Shown here one piece after another: positions 3,076 to 39,644 of a stretch of 64,000 nucleotides of DNA. The notes beneath the pieces are model-generated. The model worked only from the letters and a program-made list of their open reading frames with translations. It ran no database searches and had not been told where the DNA came from. Source of the stretch: Sipunculus nudus (Eukaryota; Annelida; Sipuncula; Golfingiida; Sipunculidae); assembly GCA_026874595.1 (NCBI GenBank), contig CM049307.1:61842370-61906369 (forward strand). The letters run 5' to 3'. Position 1 is the first letter of the stretch. Each line of letters opens with the position of its first letter. Both the position numbers and the translations under genes were made by a program.

Positions 3076-4049
3076 ACCTGGAAAATTAAATTTTCCTGAA
3101 TTAAAATGCCAAAATTGGATCAATTTCATTGGTAATAAAATACGATCACATAAAATGTATGCATAGACCCAATAATATATACATAATAAATACATAAATG
3201 AAAAATGTGAGTGAAGTATAGGAAACATCTGTATAATTCAGATATATTGTTACAAGAAAATGTTATTATACGCCTGTCTCTTAAGGGAATTTGTTATGGT
3301 ATATCCACTGTCTGTCCGTCTGTCTGGCCATTTGTTTGTAAACTTTTAGTATCAGTTACAAGGACCTACATGGATTTTCTCGAAACTCACCATAACTGCT
3401 GATCAAAAGATTATCTTGCTGGAGTTTGATTATGGGCAAATTCTTCAAATATGTAACAAGGTCAGAGGGTCACTAGGCTACTTTGTGGTGTTGCTGTGAT
3501 AACTTATCAGGAATATGATAGATTTTGATGAAACTCAAGAGAAATGTTGATCAATATATTATCTCACTTAAGTTCAATTTCCAGCAAAATCCATACATAT
3601 TTGATAAGGTCACAAGATATACAACATGCATATTATGTACCCTAGTGTACCCTAGTGTGGAACAAGGGATAATTGTGTGAATCTCACCCTCAATGTGTGA
3701 CACTTTTGTTGTCTGATATCTAATGAATAAAACTTTGAAATATTGAATTAAGACTGTAAAATAATTTAACTTAAGTTGATAAATTCTGCCATGGCTCAAA
3801 GTCACAACCAATTATAATTAATATACTGACATGTAAGAAGAAGTAGGACTTAGGTTAGGCATACTTGCTTAGAATTTCCTCTTTCATACACTGGGTAATT
3901 CACAAAATTACTATGATGATCCTACATATGTTGAAAAAATTTGCATAATGTGATCCAAGCAGTTATTTTGCAGGAGTCTGATAAATTCTAAACTTAAATT
4001 CTCAAACTTAAAATGCCTTTTGAAATAATTGATACTGAATAATAAATAT
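3076..4049. other. Intergenic stretch with old dispersed repeat
   Basis: No gene seen. About 3285-3620 carries text typical of a degenerate dispersed repeat (a 'ctgtctgtccgtctg' tract, then 'tatcagttacaaggacctac'). The remainder is unremarkable AT-rich DNA up to the left arm of the inverted duplication. Confidence 0.5.
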
Positions 4050-4092
4050 CAATTTGTTTGAGAGGACTACAGTTAGATCTGAACTGTGTGGT

Positions 4093-4108
4093 GGCTCTGA
4101 GAAGAGCC
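4093..4108 (-). promoter_or_regulatory. Histone-type 3'-end stem-loop of the minus-strand gene
   Basis: On the minus strand the sequence is GGCTCTTCTCAGAGCC: a perfect 6-bp stem (GGCTCT/AGAGCC) and a 4-nt loop TCTC. It is preceded by CAAAC and followed by ACCACA. It begins 39 nt after the stop codon. Metazoan replication-dependent histone mRNAs end in GGCTCTTTTCAGAGCC followed by ACCCA, which binds SLBP and is cleaved with U7 snRNP; stem, loop pattern (U at loop positions 1 and 3) and 3' flank all agree. No AATAAA lies in the next 100 nt. The motif is seen directly; its use in processing is inferred. Confidence 0.85.
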
Positions 4109-4147
4109 GTTTGTTTGAGTAAGATGATGTGGGTCACAGTGTCTCCA

Positions 4148-4486
4148 TCAGAACTCTGTCTCTGATTCAGTCATGTCTTCTCCTGTCATATAACGATGAA
4201 GGTCACATGACATCTGGTGGATCTGATTGGCCAGATCTTTGGTGTACTCAAACATCACATGACGAAGACCCTCAGCCACACTCATGTTGAGACTGAGCTT
4301 GTATCTGAAAACTTTATTGTTGTCAGAGAGGGCTCGTTCATACCGTACATTGTTGGCATCAATGTAGTTGTTTAGTTGGACCAGACGGTTACACGCCATG
4401 TCAAACTTGGTGGTCATCAGAGCCAGCTGGTACTCTATCCTGTCACGGTCAGACTTGTAGCAATAAGAACCAAGAGCCGAGTCCAT
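4148..4486 (-). CDS. Small intronless acidic protein of unknown function (left copy)
   Basis: This 112-codon single-exon gene starts at the ATG at 4486, in a good Kozak context (GACCACCATGG) shared with its sister at 7492. An upstream in-frame GTG is not a plausible start. The product is acidic and looks mostly alpha-helical, with Arg/Tyr/Leu-rich segments around residues 17-100 (for example RIEYQLAL and VRYERAL) and an acidic tail ending ESETEF. I see no signal peptide, membrane segment, zinc ligands or histone fold. It differs from the sister at residues 8, 9, 10, 65, 102 and 106 only. At least 12 synonymous changes separate the central 100 codons against one replacement, which indicates purifying selection. 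A TATA-like box lies upstream and a histone-type stem-loop downstream. It resembles, from memory, uncharacterised mollusc proteins; no function is claimed. Confidence 0.85.
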   Translation of the reverse strand: MDSALGSYCYKSDRDRIEYQLALMTTKFDMACNRLVQLNNYIDANNVRYERALSDNNKVFRYKLSLNMSVAEGLRHVMFEYTKDLANQIHQMSCDLHRYMTGEDMTESETEF

Positions 4487-4569
4487 GGTGGTCACAAGAA
4501 GTGATGTAGATAACAGTGTGTTGTAGCTGAGTATCAGAACAAATGTGACTTGTACAGGAGAGCTGTGTG

Positions 4570-4577
4570 TATTTATT
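4570..4577 (-). promoter_or_regulatory. TATA-like box of the left copy
   Basis: Read on minus this is AATAAATA, aligned with the TATAAATA of the right copy (7400-7407) within a nearly identical promoter and 5' leader. The first base differs, so this copy may be the weaker promoter. It lies about 90 bp before the ATG at 4486. Confidence 0.6.
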
Positions 4578-5000
4578 AGCCAGACAACCAGCTACAGTGA
4601 GTATCATATTGAGTTCTGATGGTGTTCATGTGGAGTAATGATGAGTAACTACATGCTGTGTGCTACAAGCAGCTACAGTCAGTATCATATTGAGTACCGA
4701 TTTTGGTCTGTGTAGAGCAGTGATGAGTAACTATTACATGTTGATTACCAGCAGCTAGAGCTAAAGGACAGTAGCTGGACTCTACTCACCACGGAGGTGT
4801 ACTCTACAGCTACTAATTAGACTCTGCTCTTGGGGTACTTGGAGGGCAATCACAACTAGGGTGATACAGCATTGATAAGCAGCCATACATGTAGTTCCTG
4901 TGCTCAACACTAGGGGTAACTTGTGAGCAGCTGTACTCTCGTTCAGCACAAGTTGTTACTTACAACTAGGGTAAAATGCCACAAGTAGAACTCAGCTCCA

Positions 5001-6939
5001 CAGGCATACATGTAGTTTCTCTATTCACCACTAGGGTATGCCTGTGAGCAGCTTGACTCAGCAGACTTGCTAGGTGCATGCATGTAGCTTACCATCAGGA
5101 TGCCCTGGTATTACTCACAACTGGTGAGTACCTGTATTGAGTAGACAGCCCCTTTGCCACAGGAAGGGTGTGTCAGTGATAGGACACCTCTCAAAGTTCT
5201 CATTTCCTGGGAATAAATCTTTAACGTGGTGGTCCATTGAAAAGCAAGATTCTGCTCAATACTACACAAGTTACATTCATTACACCAGAACATCTGCAAC
5301 AAGAAGTTACTCTAATCATCAACAGCTGAAAAGCACCTTTGACATTACCCACACATGGAGTTTCATTAACCAACACAGCTGCAACACTGCCCACAAATTT
5401 ACTTCAAATTCAGTGAAAAGTGGATAATAAACAAAATAAATCATAATGAAAGAGATCCCTATTAGTGTTCCTGTAAAAGTGAGGATCCCAATAACAAAGG
5501 TTTCAATGAGTAGTTAATGCATTTACTTTAATAATGACATAATTTAAGCACCAAGGATTATCCTCTATGTTGCATGTTACACATAATATTAAACTAAGTC
5601 ACTTTAGGTACTAAGAACTTAAAGTATGATAATTTTTTTTAAATATCAGGTTTGACTTTGTTATGATTTGATCTGCTCAGTTACTCACAGGTTTTAAATT
5701 CATTCTGAACCAGTCTTAACAGAGTCATTTAATTTGAATTTCTGATTAAAAAACAAGATATTCTGTATGAGTGAACTTCCTTGGACTTTGTTCATGAAAA
5801 TACCTGCATGACTTAAATGTAATCCTGATACAAATAAGTAAAAACTTTGATCAGTAACTTTTGATATTAAAATTATAAGCAAAATGTTTTATTTAATAAA
5901 ATCATGTCTTGTATGTTAAGAAAATATTTTTGCATATATTCACTTATTACACCTGCAGTCATCCCTGTGTCACAAAATTGTCAAAATTTCACACCTGTTG
6001 AGTAATAATTTAAAAAAATTTCATCATGTTTATTGTGACATGGCCCTTGTAATTTGTTTATTTTACTAATTATAACACTCATTATACCCATATTGTCGAC
6101 ATATGATCTGTTTTATCCAGGTTTAAGTGTGTATGCAAAATCCTGGCCCCATGATCAGTTTAAATAAACTAGGAAAAATAAACCTGTCAGGGTTCAGTAA
6201 GGTCATAGAAAATATACTGAGGACAGAGTCCATATGAGAATCCATCTGCAGAGGGAGTGAGTTGGCATGGGGACATGTTTTAGCGATGTTTAAAATGGAA
6301 TAACACTTTTGGACCACACCCAAATAATGGTATGATTATATAAAAAAGTGTTAAATTGTAGTAAACATATTCCAGCACATGGTAAAACTAAAATTTCAAA
6401 TATCAAATTTGATATCACACATTTTAGTTCACAAATGCTGCTTTTTTTGTTATTTTTGTGTGAAAGTTTGAGTAAATATCATTAGGCCAGAAGTTCTATA
6501 CCAGCAGAGTCTTTAAAATAATTCTCAGATAAATACAAGATACAAAATTGCATGAGGAGTCTCCTATCTCATAATCAGCTGAATTGTAACAATAATCAAA
6601 ATAACATCCTAATTTAGATTGAAAATTACTCTCAGTCTTGCTTATCATCAAATAGTCTCATTTCAAAGCAGCTACTGAGAAATGTGATATCTAAACTCAT
6701 CATTATCTGCAATAATAAAGAAGCCACTCAGTACAACCATGAGCTTACAAACTACATGGCTCACTACCATTAGCTGCTCAATAATACCAGTGCAACCAAC
6801 TGGTATGTTCTGTAACGAGATTCTAAATTGACCGCTTGCATTCTAGCTGGGAGTAGCTTTCAAAGACCATTTATACTAAGCAAGAGACAAGGTAGTCACT
6901 GAAAACCACCCCTTGTGGTGAGAAGAGAAACTATACGTA
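5001..6939. other. Spacer between the inverted arms
   Basis: The spacer separates the divergent promoters. Weak similarity between the arms continues to about 5130 and 6800. No exon is supported. A dispersed repeat occupies about 6115-6335 and is listed separately. Confidence 0.55.
6115..6335. repeat. Dispersed repeat, family also at 26.6 and 47.9 kb
   Basis: The words GAGGACAGAGTCCA, GGAATAACACTTTTGG and 'accacaccca' are shared with 47875-48175 in the same orientation and with 26575-26870 in the opposite orientation. There is no coding capacity. It is probably a short non-autonomous element. Confidence 0.6.
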
Positions 6940-7399
6940 TGCCTGTGGATCTGAGTTCTAATTGGCTGCTCATTAGTGCTGTTTTACCCTAGTTGTGTGT
7001 AACCACTTGTGCTGAACGAGAGACCAGCTGCTCACAAGTAACTCCTAGTGGCGAGCACAGGAACTACATGTATGTCTGTGGAACAGTTCTATTGGGCTGC
7101 TCATCAGTGCTGTATCACCCTAGTTGTAATTGCCCTTGTACTCACCACTGACAAGAGCAGAGTCTAATTAGTGACTCTGGAGTACACCTCGGTGGTGAGT
7201 ACAGACCAGCTACTGGTCATTAGCTCAAGCTGCTGGTACTGTGCATGTATTAGTTACTCATCACTGCTCTACACAGACCCCATCAGTACACATTTGATAC
7301 TCACTGTAGCTGCTTGTAGCACACAGCATGTAGTTACTCACATTGCTCTGCACTGACCCCATCAATGCTCAATATGATACTGTAGCTGGTTGTCTGGCC

Positions 7400-7407
7400 T
7401 ATAAATA
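7400..7407 (+). promoter_or_regulatory. TATA box of the right copy
   Basis: TATAAATA, 85 to 92 bp before the ATG at 7492. A start of transcription about 30 bp downstream, near 7430, would give a leader of about 60 nt. The surrounding sequence, including the leader, is almost identical in the left copy. Confidence 0.75.
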
Positions 7408-7491
7408 CACACAGCACTCCTGTACAAGTCACATTTGTTTCTGATACTCAGATACAACACACTGTTATCTACATCACTTCTTGTGACCACC

Positions 7492-7830
7492 ATGGACTCG
7501 GCTCTAGGTTCTGACAGCTTCAAGTCTGACCGTGACAGGATAGAATACCAGCTGGCTCTGATGACAACCAAGTTTGACATGGCGTGTAACCGTTTGGTCC
7601 AACTCAACAACTACATTGATGCCAACAACGTTCGGTATGAACGAGCCCTCTCTGACAACAATAAAGTTTTCAGATACAAGCTCACTCTCAACATGAGTGT
7701 GGCGGAGGGACTACGCCATGTGATGTTTGAGTACACCAAAGATCTGGCCAATCAGATCCACCAAATGTCATGTGACCTTCATCGTTATATGACAGAGGAA
7801 GACATGGTTGAATCAGAGACAGAGTTCTGA
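7492..7830 (+). CDS. Small intronless acidic protein of unknown function (right copy)
   Basis: This 112-codon single-exon gene begins MDSALGSD and ends ESETEF; the ATG at 7492 sits in GACCACCATGG. The open frame extends upstream to an ATG at 7435, but that lies at the expected transcription start and the extension is not open from a Kozak ATG in the sister, so 7492 is chosen. The protein is acidic (about 19 Asp/Glu against 13 Lys/Arg) and probably helical. Residues 17-100 are nearly invariant between the copies and the differences cluster at both termini. It has an intact TATA box, a short leader and a 3' UTR of only about 45 nt ending in a histone-type stem-loop. Architecture and codon conservation indicate a functional gene, expected to be S-phase- or germline-regulated if the stem-loop works. 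The family is not named here. Confidence 0.87.
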   Translation: MDSALGSDSFKSDRDRIEYQLALMTTKFDMACNRLVQLNNYIDANNVRYERALSDNNKVFRYKLTLNMSVAEGLRHVMFEYTKDLANQIHQMSCDLHRYMTEEDMVESETEF

Positions 7831-7853
7831 TGAAGACACCGTGTCTCTCAAAC

Positions 7854-7869
7854 GGCTCTTATCAGAGCC
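7854..7869 (+). promoter_or_regulatory. Histone-type 3'-end stem-loop of the plus-strand gene
   Basis: GGCTCTTATCAGAGCC: a perfect 6-bp stem with loop TATC, preceded by CAAAC and followed by ACCACA. It starts 23 nt after the stop codon. Downstream, AGATCTAACTGT is shared with the left copy and could serve as the U7-pairing (HDE) region, although it is not obviously purine-rich. No AATAAA follows before about 8205. The loop differs from the left copy by one base while both stems are intact, consistent with selection for structure. Confidence 0.87.
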
Positions 7870-7910
7870 ACCACACAATCAAGATCTAACTGTTGTACCT
7901 CACTAACAAA

Positions 7911-9380
7911 CTCTTTTCAATATTATAAAATTATTTTTAAAGGCCTCATAAGTATGGGGAAAACAATATAGTCAACATTATTGTCATTTCATTTTGGCAC
8001 TGTTCATAACCACAGTTTACGTAAAGCTAGTTTCATTTATGTTTCAGTTTCTTAAGTATCTTATACAAAGGCTCATAATTATAGAAACTTAAGCAAATAT
8101 TAGATTGTTTTATCAAAAATGTACAAAATTCAATCAAAGTAAATACTACAATTTAGACTGTACATCATTTATTTTAATTAAAATCTGACCTTGTTTAGTA
8201 GAAATAAAATGGTGAAGAACATTCATCTGAATTCTGCCTAAATTCATAAATACTAAACATGACAAGTTTGATCACAGAAAAAAAAATCCCAAGGTCATCA
8301 AGTTCACCCTGGAGGTATCAGCATTCATATCATTCATGCCTTATTGGATTGTTCATTGAATGTGTTGCTACTTACCAATATACAAAATGGAAACTTAAGA
8401 AAATTCAGATGAAAATTGGGAGAAATATGAGGAAATTACATTCTATCCATGTGAAATTAATATTTAATGGTCTTATGTCATAAATATGGACATGGGTTAT
8501 AGTTTATCAGTCAAATTGTTGCACGGTCAATTTTTTTATGTTCCACATGAGCACCTCTGCATTAGTTTAAACTAAAAAAAACTGTGAGCATGAAGTTGTT
8601 TGTATGTGGGTGACTTTGTTTGTGAAAAAAAAACGTGCTCTCAAAAAATTGTTTTTGATTCTTCATTAAGTATGAATAAGTTATATGCAAGAATATGGGA
8701 TTAAAAAAGGGCATGTCTTTATGATAAAAACTATATATGAGGAGAAGTGAAGAACATGTTTTTGAAATATTTATATTGCCTTTGAAAAATAAAACAAAAC
8801 AAAAATATTTCAGATCTTCTTCTCAATTTGAAATGCTAAATAAATGACATAATAACAAACTGCTGAGGATGAAAATCATTTGTATTTGTATCAAATTGTG
8901 ATTCTGTTATACAAGGAGGGACAGACAATGGGACAGACATGAGGTTCTAGTCAGACTGTTGTCCTTTGATTTGAAAAAAAAAAAACAAGCCAGCAAACAT
9001 AAATACAATAAAGACCTTTGAATATGAAAGTTAGGCTATTGACTCATAGCAAGCCAGTAATTAGTTTCAGTATCTGTGTTGTTAACCAGACAGCTCTGGT
9101 TTGTATTAATGCAATTCAGTGCAGTGCCAGCTTGATCATTCATCTGTTGTCAGTGTTGGCTTTCGTTGATGCAATAATTTTCTTTAAAATGACAATCTTA
9201 ATATAAAAATCCCCAGACAATAGGTGAAATAACATGATAGTGAAAAATTAGTCCATGTCAATTCACAAAATTTTAGTTAGTGAAAATAGCATGGTCTACA
9301 TTGAGTGTGAGGGTAGTGTTTATTGCAGTAAACAGCCCTAGCAGGGTCAGTAGTTTGTTCCATATCAGCACCTGTGAAGT
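7911..9380. other. AT-rich intergenic or intronic stretch
   Basis: No supported exon or repeat family. Could be intronic to the gene whose last exon lies at 10617-10887. Confidence 0.5.
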
Positions 9381-10616: not shown

Positions 10617-10887
10617 AATGATTAAGCGTTTGGACACCTGGTTACAAATATCGGAGGCTGCTCTGAGGTCTGTCTCTTCTGGCAGCACAGCAGGTGAAGG
10701 AGCTTCAGCTACCAGTGAAAATAGTTCTGATTCCAGTGATCAGGTGGCAGCACTATGCACTGGGTCAGCTGGACCAGATTTTCCTCTCCTGCCAGCCTCC
10801 AAAGGCTTCTGCATCACACTCAGGAAACACCTGGCTCAACTCAGGACCACAGTAGAAAGTGCTGGCATATCAGACTGTGCTGTGTGA
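10617..10887 (+). CDS. Terminal coding exon of an unidentified gene
   Basis: A strong acceptor (TTTTTCTCTTTTCAG) ends at 10616 and is followed by an open frame of about 90 codons to the TGA at 10885-10887. The exon starts with the third base of a split codon. The encoded C-terminus has a helical start (IKRLDTWLQISEAALRSV), a Ser/Gly/Thr/Ala-rich low-complexity stretch with SSDSSD near residues 22-42, a short PDFPLLPASKGF segment, and a final Leu/Arg helix. The ATG at 10618 is probably internal. No upstream exons were identified in the window and no family was recognised. Codon use and exon structure look genuine; the alternative is a chance frame after a cryptic acceptor. Confidence 0.6.
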
Positions 10888-11682
10888 TAACAAGAGCTGT
10901 TTTACTCTCTATCTAGGATATTTATTTTCATGTGTTGTTCATTTTCAGTGCTTATGCCAAAGTGGATCTCATGAATTTTAATACTTCAGCCTCATGGACA
11001 GTGAGAAGAGTTTAACATGTAATATCACCTGTTGCTGAATTATAAATGTCACAGTTTGATTAATGATGGAAAATGAAAAGGACTGGTCAGTGATGGTTCA
11101 CTTTGCTTTTGTGTGTTACTTTCTGCTTAAAGTGTGGTTTCACCACAGAACTGTCTCTAGATTATGGGCCATGTTGAACGAGTGTTCTTCCCCTGCAAAA
11201 TGTATTACTTAGGATGGCTCAGGTAATGTGTTGATGTAATGACATGTTTACCCTGTGGAGCCAGTTACCACATTGAGCCAGTTATGGTAGCAACAGTGTT
11301 TTCTCACATTGAGATAAGTTTGGGCACAATATTGTGTTGACCACATAAAACAAAGTTTGGTAACACAGTGACACACATAAGACCTTGAAATCTGCTGTAC
11401 CTAATATATTGACCCCAGTAAACAGTCTGACATGTACATTAGTATTCATTATGAAACCATCAATCCAACCACATCCAAGTTCGACTTGCCATTGGACGAT
11501 TGATCGCTGGGCAAGGTTCCATTTTGATGCTGTTTGTTACTTTGTATTTGTATATCTCTGGCAGGATAAGGTTCTTTGCATGTGCATACATAATTGTTTA
11601 CAATAGATTATGCAAAAATGCAATCTATTCAATTGATTTTGAAAGAAAACAACCAAGCATCAATTAATCGACACACCACAAG
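10888..11682 (+). other. 3' flank or UTR of the terminal exon
   Basis: No further coding sequence and no clear AATAAA signal before the minisatellite. Degenerate copies of words such as TGTGTTGACC and AAGTTTGG near 11335-11360 foreshadow the array that follows. Confidence 0.45.
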
Positions 11683-12640
11683 TGTTGACCCATGGAGACA
11701 AGTTTGGTTGGACCATTGTATTGACCCATGGAGACAAGTTTGGAAGCACCATTGTGTTGACCCATGGAACCAGGTTTGGTTTGACCATTTGTTGACCCAT
11801 GGAGACAAATTTGGTTGTCCGTTGTGTTGACCCAGGGAGACAAGTTTGGTTGTCCATTGTGTTGACCTATGGGGACAAGTTTGGTTGGACCATTGTGTTG
11901 ACCCATGGAGACAAGTTTGGTTCGACCATTGTGTTGACCCATGGAGACAAGTTTGGTTGGACCAATGTGTTGACCCATGGAGACAAGTTTGGTTGGACCA
12001 ATGTGTTGACCCATGGAGACAAGTTTGGTTGGACCATTGTGTTGACCCATGGAGACAAGTTTGGTTGGACCAATGTGTTGACCCATGGAAACAAGTTTGG
12101 TTGGACCAATGTGTTCACCCATGGAGACAAGTTTGGTTGGTCCATTGTGTTGACCCATGGAGACAGGTTTGGTTGGACCATTGTGTTGACCCATGGAGAC
12201 AAGTTTGGTTGGACCAATGTGTTGACCCATGGAAACAAGTTTGGTTGGACCAATGTGTTCACCCATGGAGACAAGTTTGGTTGGTCCATTGTGTTGACCC
12301 ATGGAGACAGGTTTGGTTGGACCATTGTGTTGACCCATGGAGACAAGTTTGGTTGGACCATAGGTTGACCCATGGAGACAAGTTTGGTTCAACCATTGTG
12401 TTGACCCAAGGAGACAAGTTTGGTTGGACCATTCTGTTGACCCATGGAGACAAGTTTGGAAGCACAAGTGTGTTGACCCATGGAAACAAGTTTGGTTGGA
12501 CCATTGTTTTGACCCATCGAGACAAGTTTGGAAGCACCAATGTGTTGACCCATGGAAACAAGTTTCATTGGACCATTGTGTAGACCACATTCATCAAGGT
12601 TTGGTTGTATCATTGTGTTGACCACATTGACTGAAGTTGT
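11683..12640. repeat. 36-bp minisatellite, about 26 units, with a 144-bp higher-order repeat
   Basis: The unit is 'gtgttgacccatggagacaa' followed by 'gtttggttggaccatt'. Recurrent variants (GACCAATG, GGAAACAAG, GTTCACCC, GGTCCATTG, GACAGG) form a four-unit block of 144 bp that is repeated once: GTTCACCC occurs at 12113 and again at 12257. Because 36 is a multiple of three and the unit lacks stops in several frames, long frames run on both strands (up to 308 codons). They have no independent support as genes. Confidence 0.95.
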
Positions 12641-15055: not shown

Positions 15056-17370
15056 GCAGAACTCTGGGAAGGGACCAACTTCAAAAGGCAGGGGATGAAT
15101 GGTCCAGGGAAGATACCAACTTCAAGGGCAGGGGATGGAGGGTACAGGGAAGGGACCAGCTTCATCAGACAGTGGATGGAGGGTCCAGGGAAGATACCAA
15201 CTTCATTAGACAGGGGATGAAGGGTCCAGGGAAGATACCAACTTCAAAAGGCAGGGGATGAAGGGTCCAGGGAAGAGTTCGAGAGACCAACTTCATTAGA
15301 CAGGGGATGGAGGGTCCAGGGAAGGGACCAGCTTCATCAGACAGTGGATGGAGGGTCCAGGGAAGATACTAACTTCAAAAGGCAGGGGATGAATGGTCCA
15401 GGGAAGATACCAACTTCAAGGGCAGGGGATGGAGGGTACAGGGAAGGGACCAGCTTCATCAGACAGTGGATGGAGGGTCCAGGGAAGATACCAACTTCAT
15501 TAGACAGGGGATGAAGGGTCCAGGGAAGATACCAACTTCAAAAGGCAGGGGATGAAGGGTCCAGGGAAGAGTTCGAGAGACCAACTTCATTAGACAGGGG
15601 ATGGAGGGTCTAGGGAAGGGACCAGCTTCATCAGACAGTGGATGGAGGGTCAAGGGAAGATGCCAACTTCAAAAGGCAGGGGATGAATGGTCCAGGGAAG
15701 ATACCAACTTCAAGGGCAGGGGATGGAGGGTACAGGGAAGGGACCAGCTTCATCAGACAGTGGATGGAGGGTCCAGGGAAGATACCAACTTCATTAGACA
15801 GGGGATGAAGGGTCCAGGGAAGATACCAACTTCAAAAGGCAGGGGATGAAGGGTCCAGGGAAGAGTTCGAGAGACCAACTTCATTAGACAGGGGATGGAG
15901 GGTCTAGGGAAGGGACCAGCTTCATCAGACAGTGGATGGAGGGTCCAGGGAAGATGCCAACTTCAAAAGGCAGGGGATGAATGGTCCAGGGAAGATACCA
16001 ACTTCAAAAGGCAGTGGAACGAGGGTCCAGGGAAGGGACCAGCTTCATCAGACAGTGGATGGAGGGTCCAGGGAAGATACTAACTTCATTAGACAGAGGA
16101 TGAAGGGTCCAGGGAAGATACCAACTTCAAAAGGCAGGGGATGGAGGGTCCAGGGAAGGGACCAGCTTCATCAGACAGTGGATGGAGGGTCCAGGGAAGA
16201 TACCAACTGCATTAGACAGGGGATGAAGGGTCCAGGGAAGATACCAACTTCAAAAGGCAGGGGATGAAGGGTCCAGGGAAGAGTTCGAGAGACCAACTTC
16301 ATTAGACAGGGGATGGAGGGTCCAGGGAAGGGACCAGCTTCATCAGACAGTGGATGGAGGGTCCAGGGAAGATACCAACTTCAAAAGGCAGGGGATGAAT
16401 GGTCCAGGGAAGATACCAACTTCAAAAGGCAGGGGATGGAGGGTCCAGGGAAGGGACCAGCTTCATCAGACAGTGGATAGAGGGTCCAGGGAAGATACTT
16501 ACTTCAAAAGGCAGGGGATGAATGGTCCAGGGAAGATACCAACTTCAAAAGGCAGGGGATGGAGGGTCCAGAGAATGGACCAACTTCATGGGGCAAGGAA
16601 TGGAGGGTGCAGGGAAGGGACCAACATCATAAGGCAGGGGGTGGAGGGTCCAGGGAAAGGGCCAACTTCATTGGCCACGGGATGGGGGATCCAGGGAAGA
16701 TACCAAATTCAAAAGGTAGGGGATAGAGGGTCCAGGGAAAGGGTAAACTTCATGGGGCAAGGGGTGGGGGATCCAGTGAAGATACAAACTCCAAATGGCA
16801 GGGGATGAAGGGTCCAGGGAAGGGACTAACTTCATGGGGCAAAGGATAGGGGTCTATTGAAGATTCCAACTTCATGAGGTTTGGGATGGAGGGTCCAGGG
16901 AAAGGGCCAACTTCATGGGCTACAGGATTGGGGAACCATTCAAGATACCAACTTCATCCGACAGCCGACAGGGGATGGAGGGTCCAGGGAAGAGACCTAC
17001 TTCATTAGATAGGGGATGGAGGGTCCAGGGGAGAGACCAACTTCATGAGGTTAGCAAAGGAGGGTCCAGGGTAGATACCAACTTTAAAAGGCAGGGGATG
17101 GAAGGTCCAAGGAAAGGGCCAACTTCATGGAGGCAAGGGATTGGAGGGTTCAAGGAAGATACCAATTCAAAAAGGCAGGTGATTGGGGGTCTAGGGAACA
17201 TTCAAACTTCATCAGACAGGAGATGGAGGATCCAGGGAAGGGACCAACTTCAAAAGGCAGGGGATGGAGGGTCCAGGGAGATGACAACTTTATTCGACAG
17301 TGAATATAGGGACCTAAATGAGACACTGGATGAAGGGTCCAGGGAGGGGATCAACCACCTTCAACAGCAA
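15056..17370. repeat. ~41-bp minisatellite, over 50 units, with a ~294-bp higher-order repeat
   Basis: The unit contains 'ggatgaagggtccagggaag' followed by 'ataccaacttcaaaaggcag' or variants with 'ggaccagcttcatcagacag'. A marker variant with GAGTTCGAGAGA occurs at 15275, 15569, 15863 and 16281. The first three are exactly 294 bp apart; the last gap is 418 bp. Units degenerate after about 16560. Frames read through parts of it but are driven by the repeat. Confidence 0.95.
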
Positions 17371-30005: not shown

Positions 30006-30575
30006 TCATTGCAACATTAGGGAGTTTAGGTTGTCCTGTAGAATTATGTCCTTAACGGCCTCAAAAACAAACTTGATGTTCTCGGTATCAACCGCTGTGG
30101 TAAAATGGTGGAAGAGGGGTTTTCTTCGTTCCCTCCTGCGAGAGTCAAACAGGTTCAGTTGGAAGTTTTGCACAGATTCTAAATTACGTGGGTCCCCAAG
30201 GAATTGTGGGAAATAGTCTTTGATGCTGACTTGACGTATTTTGTCACGTAGCAAGTCTGTTTTGTTAAGAAACAAGATGATTGAAACATTAGAAAAAGCC
30301 TTATTGTTCACAATGGTTTCAAAAATGTTGCACGACTCCACGAGGCGGTTGGTTTTCCTATCTTCCATTAGTACCTGGTCAAATTCACTGGACGACGACA
30401 TGAACAAGATGGAGGTTACTCCTTCAAAACACTGGAACCATTTTTGTCGCTGTGACCTCTGACCTCCGACATCGACGAATAAGAAAGGCACACCTTTTAT
30501 GTCGTACTCGTGTTCTATGATACCCTTAGTTGCTTTCCTTGCAAAGAGTATATCCTGTCTGATAGGAATGTAGTT
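30006..30575 (-). CDS. G protein alpha subunit, G12/13 class: last exon
   Basis: The exon follows a clean acceptor (GTTTTTGTTATTTCAG) and encodes the final 189 residues up to TGA at 30008-30006. It covers most of the Ras-like GTPase domain. Switch I has RKATKG (residues 13-18, with the catalytic Arg and Mg-binding Thr). Next come the G3 motif DVGGQ (35-39, catalytic Gln), [13 protein letters not shown] (61-73), the G4 motif NKTD (104-107) and the G5-like HHFTTAV (156-162). The C-terminus ends LMLQ, as in G12/13 proteins. The class couples receptors to RhoGEFs at the plasma membrane. RSQRQKW after switch II resembles the invertebrate (concertina-like) form more than the vertebrate one. All key GTPase residues are intact. 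Confidence 0.95.
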
Positions 30576-30662
30576 CTGAAATAACAAAAACACCAAATGA
30601 CAAGTCACTGATCAGTGGGATAGCTGGACAACAAAACTTGTTGACAGTTCACCTGTACTCTA

Positions 30663-36414: not shown

Positions 36415-37171
36415 TGTCAAGGCCCAGATCCTGGTCCAGAATCCCTGGTTCGTTCAGACCAAATCCCAATCAGGATTCTGTCCAGCCTAAATTTCAATCT
36501 TCAATTAATAACAAAGTGAATGACTTCCTGTCTGATCAGCTGAAGGTAATGGATAACCATGATATAACTCATGTCGACCAAGGCTCATTTTAAATATCAA
36601 ATCAATGTAAAATTATTTAAATTTATCAAATGTTTTTGGTCTATTCTAGATACAGAATTTGATTATTTTGATTGATACACAAATGATGCATGTAGGTAAT
36701 ACAAGCCAAGAAAAGTATAATTGATCAAGTTTTTTTAAATCATATTTCAATTTTATTTTAATATTTCATTTTTCAAATTCAAAGGTTAAGTTGTGCCACA
36801 AATGTCAGTAATTATTCTTTACTCCATTAATTAGTTCATGGCAGGTATCAGTCACAAGTTCAACTAATAGTGTATCTGAAGTTTGCTTGGCACAGATAAA
36901 ATTTGTTCATGATGAAATCACAGGCATTATCTACCAACTCACATTCTGAATCAGGATTTGGGCTTGACCAGATCCTGATTGGGGCTTGGACTGGTCAAAA
37001 TCATGATCAGGATTTGGTCTGGACAAATCGGGAAATGGTGCAGACCAAGTCCTGCTCAGGATTCAGTCCAGCCTTAACCCCAGCCCAAATCCTGATTGGG
37101 GTTCAGGCTGGACTGAATCCAGATCTGAATTTGGTCCCTGATTGGTCAAGATCTAGATCTGGGCCTTGACA
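36415..37171. mobile_element. Fold-back element with perfect 16-bp TIRs
   Basis: TGTCAAGGCCCAGATC (36415-36430) is matched exactly by GATCTGGGCCTTGACA (37156-37171). Similarity continues inward imperfectly (for example GGACAGAATCC-like and CCCAATCAGGATT words on both sides). The right half is a degenerate ~22-bp minisatellite of 'gatcctgattggggcttgga' variants. No transposase frame is present. Target-site duplications were not evident. Confidence 0.75.
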
Positions 37172-38940
37172 TAAGCACATGCAAATTTCATATTCTCTGC
37201 AAAAATATATTTAAATCCTGCCAGAGAAATAAGGAAGACAGGACACAAAGTAGCAAACAACATTTAACCCTGTGCAAAGAAAAAGAAAAAACAAAATTGC
37301 CACTACCTTGATCTTTCAGCATGATGTACAAGTCAGAATGAATTTACTTTAACAATATTTTATGTATAATTCTATACCGCAGTTTTAACAATAACATAAA
37401 AGGTACATTAATGATCAATTAATCACTGGAAATTTTCCCCTTTAAATCACTGAACATGGTTTAACCACCAATCCCTACCACTGCTATCTTTACAACAGCC
37501 CTATTCTTAACAGTCAATACTTGACTCAGAAAGAATCTGAACTGGACCAATAGTTGTAAACCTGCCCTGTTAGTGGATATCCAGTTGACTGGACAACAGG
37601 ACAAGGCCAATGAAACAGGGTCATCCCTACAGCTCAGTTGGCCTGCAGTATGATGAGCTTAGAAAACGTGTCAACAATGTTCTTTAAAAAGGTTGAATAC
37701 TTTGTTGCAGCACTCAGTGAAGGGTGACCACTAACATAGTACTGAAAGTGAATCAGATTAGAAAAAGCAAGAAATCATTCTTGCATTTTCTTCAGTTATT
37801 TTATCAAAATCCAGAAAATGTGTTAAACAATACAGCAAAGCAAGAACCTGATCAAACCTTGGAATTGTAACTCAAGCCGGCCATCCTGAGGTGACATGTC
37901 ACACAACATGAACATTCCATACACACAGCAACATGTTCTGCAACGTGTCCTGCAAAACTATGAGACGATGAGACAAAGTTTTCTGCCTAGGACATATTCT
38001 GTCTTGTTTCTCTTTATTTATATAGATATATAGGAAAACAGGCATAGGTATTTTGAGATAGCTAAACAACTTCTTCTGATTGTCCTGTTGACCGCACAAA
38101 ACACATGGCACCCTCATCAGACAAGGTGAAACCATTGACGGTCACATTATCACAGGATAACATGATCAATCGTTATATATTCGTTGGCTCCCCCCCCCCC
38201 CCACACTGGGCGTGATGTCACGTGACAAGTCACAGGAAAAAGAAACATGTTCCTTCTTCTGCAACATGTCGCACAACTCATGATAACATGCGACTAACCC
38301 CCTTACATGGTGCAACTCGTCACGGAACAAGCGTGTTCTGCGACTTGTCGCATGAACATGTCGCCTCGTGTATGGCCAGCTTTACAAGGCAGGTCATATT
38401 TTCTTGTTGTACATATCATATATCTCTTAATTGTTAATAAAAAGATTCCATCTTCAATTATTCCATATGTCTAATAAGAATACAAGTTATGGCCGCATAA
38501 ATTCAGTTAATGCACAGTTTAAGGAAGCCTCTGATACACAATTCCAAAAGCACAGGGACCTATAGTCAGTAGTCATATCTTGTATACATTAGACTACTTG
38601 TAGCATTTTTCACAATTACCACACTCACTGGGCACCCATACACAACAATCAGTGTCTACATCCTGGCACTTTATCCTCATCTGGTATTCCTTTCAAGAGG
38701 GTTTGATGGCTCACCCCCAGCTGGGTGTCCTGAACTCGGATATTTTTTCTTCCTGTTTTGATAAATGCTAAAGAGTGGTTAGGAATACTAAGGATGAAGT
38801 TTTCCGGTTAACGTTCTGTCTCCCTTGTTTTATGCCCTCCCATGGCTTCCCGTCTCAGAATGATTTCCGCTACCTCTTGGCGAATCATAGGAAACTGAGC
38901 TGTAGAGAATAGTTGAAAGACACAAGTGCAGCACTGTACT
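37172..38940. other. Intergenic or intronic stretch
   Basis: No gene recognised. A C run of 13 lies at 38190-38202. Around 38220-38370, GC-richer text with repeated 'caacatgtcgc'/'cgacttgtcgc' words suggests a small degenerate repeat. Confidence 0.4.
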
Positions 38941-39625
38941 ACCAGTGTCCTGAACATATTTCTACCAGTGTCCTGCACATATTTCTACCAGTGTCCTGCA
39001 CATATTTCTACCAGTGTCCTGAACATATTTCTACCAGTGTTCTGAACATATATCTACCAGTGCCCTGAACATATTTCTACCAGTGTCCTGAACATATTTC
39101 TACCAGTGTCCTGAACATATTTCTACCAGTGTCCTGAACATATTTCTACCAGTGTCCTGAACATATTTCTACCAGTGTCCTGAACATATTTCTACCAGTG
39201 TTCTGAACATATTTCTACCAGTGTCCTGAACATATTTCTACCAGTGTCCTGAACATATTTCTACCAGTGTCCTGAACATATTTCTACCAGTGTCCTGAAC
39301 ATATTTCTACCAGTGTCCTGAACATATTTCTACCAGTGTCCTGAACATATTTCTACCAGTGTCCTGATCATATTTCTACCAGTGTCCTGAACATATTTCT
39401 ACCAGTGTCCTGAACATATTTCTACCAGTGTCCTGAACATATTATAACCAGTGTCCTGAACATATTTCTACCAGTGTTCTGAACATATTTCTACCAGTGT
39501 CCTGAACATATTTCTACCAGTGTTCTGAACATATTTCTACCAGTTTCCTGAACATATTTCTACCAGTGTCCTGAACATATTTCTACCAGTGTTCTGAACA
39601 TATTTCTACCAGTGTCCTGCACATA
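38941..39625. repeat. 23-bp minisatellite, about 29 units
   Basis: The unit is TGTCCTGAACATATTTCTAC + CAG. Variants GTTCTGAAC, GTCCTGCAC and GTCCTGATC are scattered. Highly homogeneous, so probably young or actively homogenised. Confidence 0.95.
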
Positions 39626-39644
39626 TTTATTACAATATGATATT

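Follow-up and report, generated by a model that had tools for sequence, protein, structure and literature searches.

The mRNAs of replication-dependent histone genes obtain their 3' ends by cleavage about 5 nt past the stem of a stem-loop, and no tail is added. The signal on these mRNAs (Rfam RF00032), which is served by SLBP and the U7 small nuclear ribonucleoprotein (U7 snRNP), combines a 6-bp stem, a 4-nt loop and an ACCA/AACA 3' flank with a histone downstream element (HDE) 7-9 nt past the stem, and the genes themselves are short, single-framed and arranged in tandem arrays. Two articles state that no mRNAs other than those of histones are known to have such an end or to make use of SLBP (PMC6303110, PMC2781718), and a third describes stem-loops on clam histone genes (PMC6210712). 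A variant of the same arrangement is found in C. elegans, where the hairpin of the histone mRNAs is followed by a conserved downstream element, AATCC, and then by AATAAA (PMC1924863). Here we describe a 64,000-nt stretch of the Sipunculus nudus genome (contig CM049307.1, positions 61,842,370 to 61,906,369 of the forward strand; hereafter the window), in which two short genes carry both halves of the replication-dependent histone signal and yet encode no histone. They belong to an unnamed non-histone family of about 185 copies and, judging from sequence, we put the probability that this family forms its mRNA 3' ends by the histone route at roughly 85%. Among the matches listed in the open-licence literature (subscription journals and bioRxiv lying outside it), none described a histone-type 3' element on a gene other than a histone gene.

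The two window genes are intronless open reading frames of 112 codons: gene A (MDSALGSYCYK...) at 4148..4486 on the minus strand and gene B (MDSALGSDSFK...) at 7492..7830 on the plus strand, stop codons included. Their proteins, 112 amino acids (aa) each, are 95% identical, and the ratio of nonsynonymous to synonymous substitution rates (dN/dS) between the genes is 0.11. Both genes are contained in an imperfect inverted repeat (4003..7956) whose arms, 4003-5036 and 6910-7956, are 84% identical and each stop about 70 nt beyond their own HDE. The first-pass annotation of this DNA had proposed that both genes end in a perfect 6-bp stem with a 4-nt loop. This was borne out: GGCTCT-TCTC-AGAGCC lies at 4093..4108 on the minus strand, 39 nt past the stop of gene A, and GGCTCT-TATC-AGAGCC at 7854..7869 on the plus strand, 23 nt past the stop of gene B. 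The same annotation was right about these offsets, about the CAAAC on the 5' side and the ACCACA on the 3' side of each stem-loop, and about loops that differ (TCTC versus TATC) on stems that are perfect in both copies. What it overlooked is the HDE and the genome-wide family to which the pair belongs. The HDE of gene A, GTTCAGATCT at 4075..4084 (minus strand), is a candidate U7 pairing site; that of gene B is ATCAAGATCT at 7878..7887 (plus strand). Both start 8 nt past the stem, and their AGATCT cores occupy 4075-4080 (minus strand) and 7882-7887 (plus strand). On the 5' side, gene B has a TATA box, TATAAATA, at 7400..7407 (plus strand), 92 nt before the ATG, matched in position by a TATA-like box of gene A, TAATAAATA at 4570..4578 (minus strand), likewise 92 nt before the ATG and below the strict TATAWAW pattern. 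Regarding polyadenylation signals, the 400 nt after the stop of gene A hold neither AATAAA nor ATTAAA, and the nearest such hexamer in gene B lies 346 nt after the stop, in agreement with the earlier claim that no AATAAA lies close by.

A chance origin of the stem-loops was ruled out by three results. Firstly, exact matches to them in the 64 kb are two only, GGCTCTTCTCAGAGCC on the minus and GGCTCTTATCAGAGCC on the plus strand; allowing 3 mismatches gives 5 matches where 0.6 are expected by chance, and 4 of the 5 fall on these two sites, which are near-palindromic. Secondly, the Rfam Histone3 model recognized the stem-loop of gene A (window 4067-4113, minus strand) with 36.9 bits (E 3.9e-7) and that of gene B with 32.6 bits (E 1.6e-5), the latter just under the gathering score of 34. 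When the whole 1.43-Gb genome was searched, with 75 of 297,000 candidates scored, the stem-loop of gene A was the top match among the 74 listed, outscoring those at H4 in the histone arrays. Thirdly, the pattern GGYYYT-N4-ARRRCC-N9..13-AGATCT had 169 matches in the genome versus 1 for the reversed pattern.

The signal is also the one present at the histone genes of S. nudus. A 5.35-kb histone repeat contains H2B, H4, H3 and H2A, and these genes, like the H1 genes (linker-histone identity: Pfam PF00538 in both tested loci, L126 and L134), carry a stem-loop followed 8-9 nt on by a ATTCAGATCT-like sequence, which was taken as the HDE. In the family the HDE begins 7-9 nt past the stem, and in 25 of 26 elements it is at most 3 mismatches away from the histone ATTCAGATCT, versus 8.4% of shuffled flanks. 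A covariance model built from these 26 family elements only, the two window sites being in the training set, finds the 3' ends of H4 (48.2 bits), H3 (41.0), H2A (40.0) and H2B (37.7), matches 7/7 linker-histone loci given (40.7-56.0 bits) and scores L132, a locus left out of training, at 62.1 bits; in the window the two stem-loop sites reach 57-59 bits, and no other site exceeds 16. With the Rfam Histone3 model the scores are 21.5-33.3 bits for the histones and 22.0-36.9 bits for the matching family loci. Spill-over from an adjacent histone gene was rejected: among the listed matches to the core histone profile PF00125 (212 candidates, of which 150 were scored), none comes closer than 100 kb to the window pair or to the family arrays at C3:79.2M, C3:18.8M and C4:58.0M, and most are terminal on C1 or C2 or belong to small contigs.

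The scan of the genome for the stem-loop that the first-pass annotation had suggested found non-histone family loci carrying the element well beyond one pair. When 100 listed of the 169 pattern matches were assigned by coordinates, 73 fell to the family, 14 to H1, 8 to dispersed repeats, 1 (L133) to an unknown category and 4 were chance-like. Of the family matches, 70 adjoin a protein match, 2 fall within the C3:18.8M array where no protein match was listed, and the last is L132, an extra family member revealed solely by the stem-loop and HDE pattern. In the case of H1, frames were read at 7 loci; the other 7 were assigned because their element is nearly identical or because they adjoin L080, whose 66-aa lysine-rich frame has no Pfam match. 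It is important to add that the pattern misses variants, e.g. those of the C3:79.2M array. At L133 (C3:82.02M) the stem-loop and HDE are strong, scoring 50.5 bits under the family model, with no convincing frame ahead.

The size of the family was obtained from two protein searches, the overlap between which was tallied by hand. The gene B protein gave 118 genome matches at E <=10, of which 113 reach E 0.001; with a divergent member as the query there were 109 rows at E 0.1, 69 of them (about 66 places) new. Together this makes about 185 copies, a few of which are fragments or interrupted by stop codons, with proteins of about 97-122 residues. Large tandem arrays hold 60 copies at C2:72.58-72.69M (unit about 1.66 kb), 51 at C3:18.78-18.98M and 26 at C3:79.21-79.26M (unit about 2.0 kb), and a third relative, L065, is found 1.8 kb beyond the left edge of the window. 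A single uninterrupted frame, as read from genomic DNA, crosses the aligned region in 59/59 loci; L102 has no ATG at the usual place, and in L044 and L045, both array copies, the usual stop is gone and the frame runs through its own stem-loop. With dN/dS values of 0.08-0.45 in 19/20 pairs, the remaining pair being saturated at synonymous sites, the family frames are by this measure under purifying selection.

Unlike histone genes, the family has no match to a histone profile and its window members are predicted to form a two-helix hairpin, which agrees with the earlier statement that the proteins share no histone fold. In an alignment of 29 members mean column identity is 40%, and R48 and A52 are invariant. 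No Pfam family matched the family proteins above cut-off, no histone family was among the 25 Pfam families listed for these 29 members at E 0.1, and hhalign of the family against H4 and H3 gave probabilities of 0.2 and 0.1 on the printed per cent scale, thus no detectable relation. By the Pfam profiles and hhalign, a divergent-histone identity was ruled out. For the two window proteins AlphaFold2 placed helices at 2-55 and 58-111 (mean predicted local distance difference test, pLDDT, 84.7; predicted template-modelling score, pTM, 0.67), i.e. a predicted antiparallel helical hairpin, and a prediction it stays because the input consisted of only two near-identical sequences. Structure searches returned generic hairpins only, and the predicted fold resembles such hairpins, e.g. 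PspA/Vipp1 and the p85 iSH2 coiled coil. DUF4455, Syntaxin and the BAP31 coiled coil, candidates from Pfam and PDB, were set aside as below cut-off or as generic helices. The earlier description of the proteins as acidic fits the window pair, with isoelectric points (pI) of 5.3 and 5.0; it does not extend to the family, where acidity is no common trait because pI spans 4.6-10.3 among 25 members.

To describe the 3' ends across the family, 59 loci were scanned (truncated L074 being left out, and 18 of the 59 being near-copies from one array). The stem-loop is retained in 53, four have the HDE with a variant hairpin, and two have neither. A simple scan gave a stem of at least 5/6 pairs in 51/59 loci, 22-128 nt past the stop; the two others that retain it are L044 and L045, in which it falls inside the extended frame. 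The 5' stem halves vary from subfamily to subfamily and read GGCTCT, TGCTCT, GGCCTT, GGTTCT, GGCCCT or GGTCCT with matching partners, apart from one mismatch in L071 (5/6 pairs) and a G-U pair in L035, L037 and L066. Among the variants, L069 has a GGCCTC/GAGGCC hairpin with the HDE, while L067, L068 and L073 keep the HDE next to a non-consensus hairpin. Tandem stem-loops, two in L033 and three in L070, stand ahead of a single HDE. In the 26 elements, 99.4% of cells are paired, a value reached by 0/500 shuffles, and 4/6 stem pairs have changed on both sides; the covariation score is 0.347 versus 0.156 shuffled, and structures slid along the sequence pair just 15-53% of cells. On the protein tree, whose long branches leave the deep joins unsure, stem type changes 8 times, where the least possible is 7 and the shuffled mean 19.8. 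Altogether this reads as one ancestral acquisition of the 3' element, maintained by selection.

Several observations weigh against histone-type ends for the whole family. Within the covariation analysis, kinship among sequences can outscore shuffles without any structure, the number of pairs with both-side changes was matched by 16/500 shuffles, and the number of further pair types was not exceptional (355/500 shuffles as high). The Rfam model alone recovers 17/28 further family loci at E 0.1, leaving 11 unmatched, and the genome's own H2A and H2B reach just 21.5-22.2 bits with it. The consensus stem is missing in 4/59 loci, the HDE core is changed in the C3:79.2M array (CATCCTCATCT), and in the 60-copy C2:72.6M array the one full unit read has 5/6 pairs and the next unit's edge 6. 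A U7 snRNA was not found: a search of the genome with RF00066 gave none, and of 76 matches to a U7 pattern (versus 17 reversed) 32 were read and folded, none of them convincing. Furthermore, stem-loop and HDE are both absent from L041 and L047, whose frames are still open, and AATAAA or ATTAAA occurs within 400 nt of the stop in 37/59 loci and within 200 nt in 15/59, raw counts in A+T-rich sequence taken without a shuffle control. Because of such hexamers an alternative poly(A) end is possible for many loci, and together with the two loci that lack the element they imply that some members could be polyadenylated. The same hexamers and the same two loci would be expected if the element were a relic, gained by an ancestor through duplication or fusion with a histone 3' end and now idle, the genes being polyadenylated further downstream. 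However, an idle element is at odds with both-side changes in four of six pairs at nearly complete pairing, with an HDE retained at nearly fixed spacing, and with an element kept down to 16-28% protein identity to the window gene, and we regard this explanation as highly improbable.

Returning to histone-type 3' end formation, the genome does encode SLBP: its RNA-binding domain, PF15247, has two adjoining matches at C1:29.647M (best E 1.8e-13). The claim that a non-histone family has come to carry a histone-type 3' end is supported, well past the single pair, by a bipartite signal shared with histones, compensatory evolution, inheritance along the protein tree, purifying selection and an encoded SLBP. 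Family mRNAs are most likely cleaved by the SLBP/U7 machinery, without poly(A). In the mechanism we propose, SLBP would bind the family stem-loop, U7 snRNP would pair with the HDE about 8 nt downstream of the stem, and the CPSF73 complex would cut between the two, leaving an mRNA that ends just past the stem-loop and has no poly(A) tail. Its level would be tied to S phase or to the cleavage cycles of the early embryo, and a helical protein would be made in bulk in step with DNA replication, with its own transcription factor as the switch. The absence of introns, the high copy number and the lack of a tail would suit rapid production in short cell cycles.

The elements might instead act after transcription only, through SLBP-dependent translation or stability, on ends made by the poly(A) machinery and later trimmed. 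C. elegans offers a model for this, as the source describes a conserved poly(A) signal behind the histone hairpin and cleavage with later trimming as possible there (PMC1924863). The C. elegans genes in that account differ from the family in being histones with a conserved poly(A) signal close by, whereas the family as a whole shows no poly(A) hexamer at a constant short distance, and the HDE common to the histones of this genome is retained. Ends of this kind are therefore very unlikely in our view, and direct formation by the histone route stays the preferred explanation.

The same element was also met in dispersed repeats. One such repeat (L007-L015, also L081) carries three histone-type stem-loops in each of the 9 copies L007-L015, two of which sit, in L007, behind small frames of 94 and 111 aa. 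The repeat had no Pfam match, and one of its frames used as query had no IMG/VR match; it appears to be a mobile element using the histone 3' end. A second dispersed repeat (L079, L135) has frames of 154 and 128 aa with similar ends that precede a stem-loop and HDE; these had no Pfam match, and we take them to be transposase-like. L076 has a stem-loop like that of L079 and L135, with no frame called there, and L077 and L078 represent a repeat whose stem-loop, GGCCCT/AGGGCC, is followed by CATTCATGTCT, with no frame just upstream in the stretch read.

Given such repeats and its own very high copy number, the family could itself go back to a transposable or virus-like element which took over the 3' pathway of the histones and spread as selfish or domesticated copies. 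Against this origin, the copies lie mostly in tandem arrays and are not dispersed, the frames are under purifying selection as judged above, three family queries found no viral relative in IMG/VR (a search that detects close relatives only), and there was no BFVD structural match at E 0.001. A mobile origin is thus unlikely in our view.

In the case of the promoters, the family and the histones part ways. In 17/32 members a TATAWAW box occurs no more than 250 nt from the ATG (one at -215), with near-matches in others. The hexamer TACTCA/TGAGTA tops all 6-mers by number of members, being present upstream in 25/30, with 87 occurrences of TACTCA in 8,653 nt upstream versus 7 in 7,500 nt of control flank; a point to be set against these counts is that TACTCA was picked after the 6-mer ranking and that some of the 30 promoters are near-copies. 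Unlike the family promoters, those of H4, H3 and H2B hold 1, 0 and 1 copies, the whole 8.4-kb histone stretch 5. Because TACTCA marks the family promoters and is not enriched in the histone repeat, the family seems to have its own transcription program and to have only the 3' end in common with histones. We lean, with some reserve, towards a second replication-coupled regulon, in which about 185 non-histone copies with their own promoter code would produce SLBP/U7-made mRNAs without poly(A), and which mobile elements would have joined by the same pathway. If true, the presence of the full bipartite signal on a non-histone family would break the histone-only rule and provide a natural test of which controls of histone mRNAs depend on the 3' end alone; it would also point to proteins that are probably required in large amounts during DNA replication or early in embryonic life.

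Additionally, some other features of the window were recorded. To the right of the pair, 10618-10887 (plus strand) was read by eye as the apparent last coding exon of an unrelated gene, and the pair may lie in an intron of this plus-strand gene. A frame at 30006-30608 on the minus strand matches positions 154-333 of the Pfam G-alpha profile (PF00503, E 4.9e-69) and represents the final exon of a gene for a G-protein alpha subunit. A 40-bp inverted repeat at 37043-37136, with arms 85% complementary, scores as several miRNA families far under their gathering scores and is probably a small foldback element. Finally, large minisatellites occupy 11682-12623, 15066-17290 and 38939-39628, with units of 36, 41 and 23 bp.

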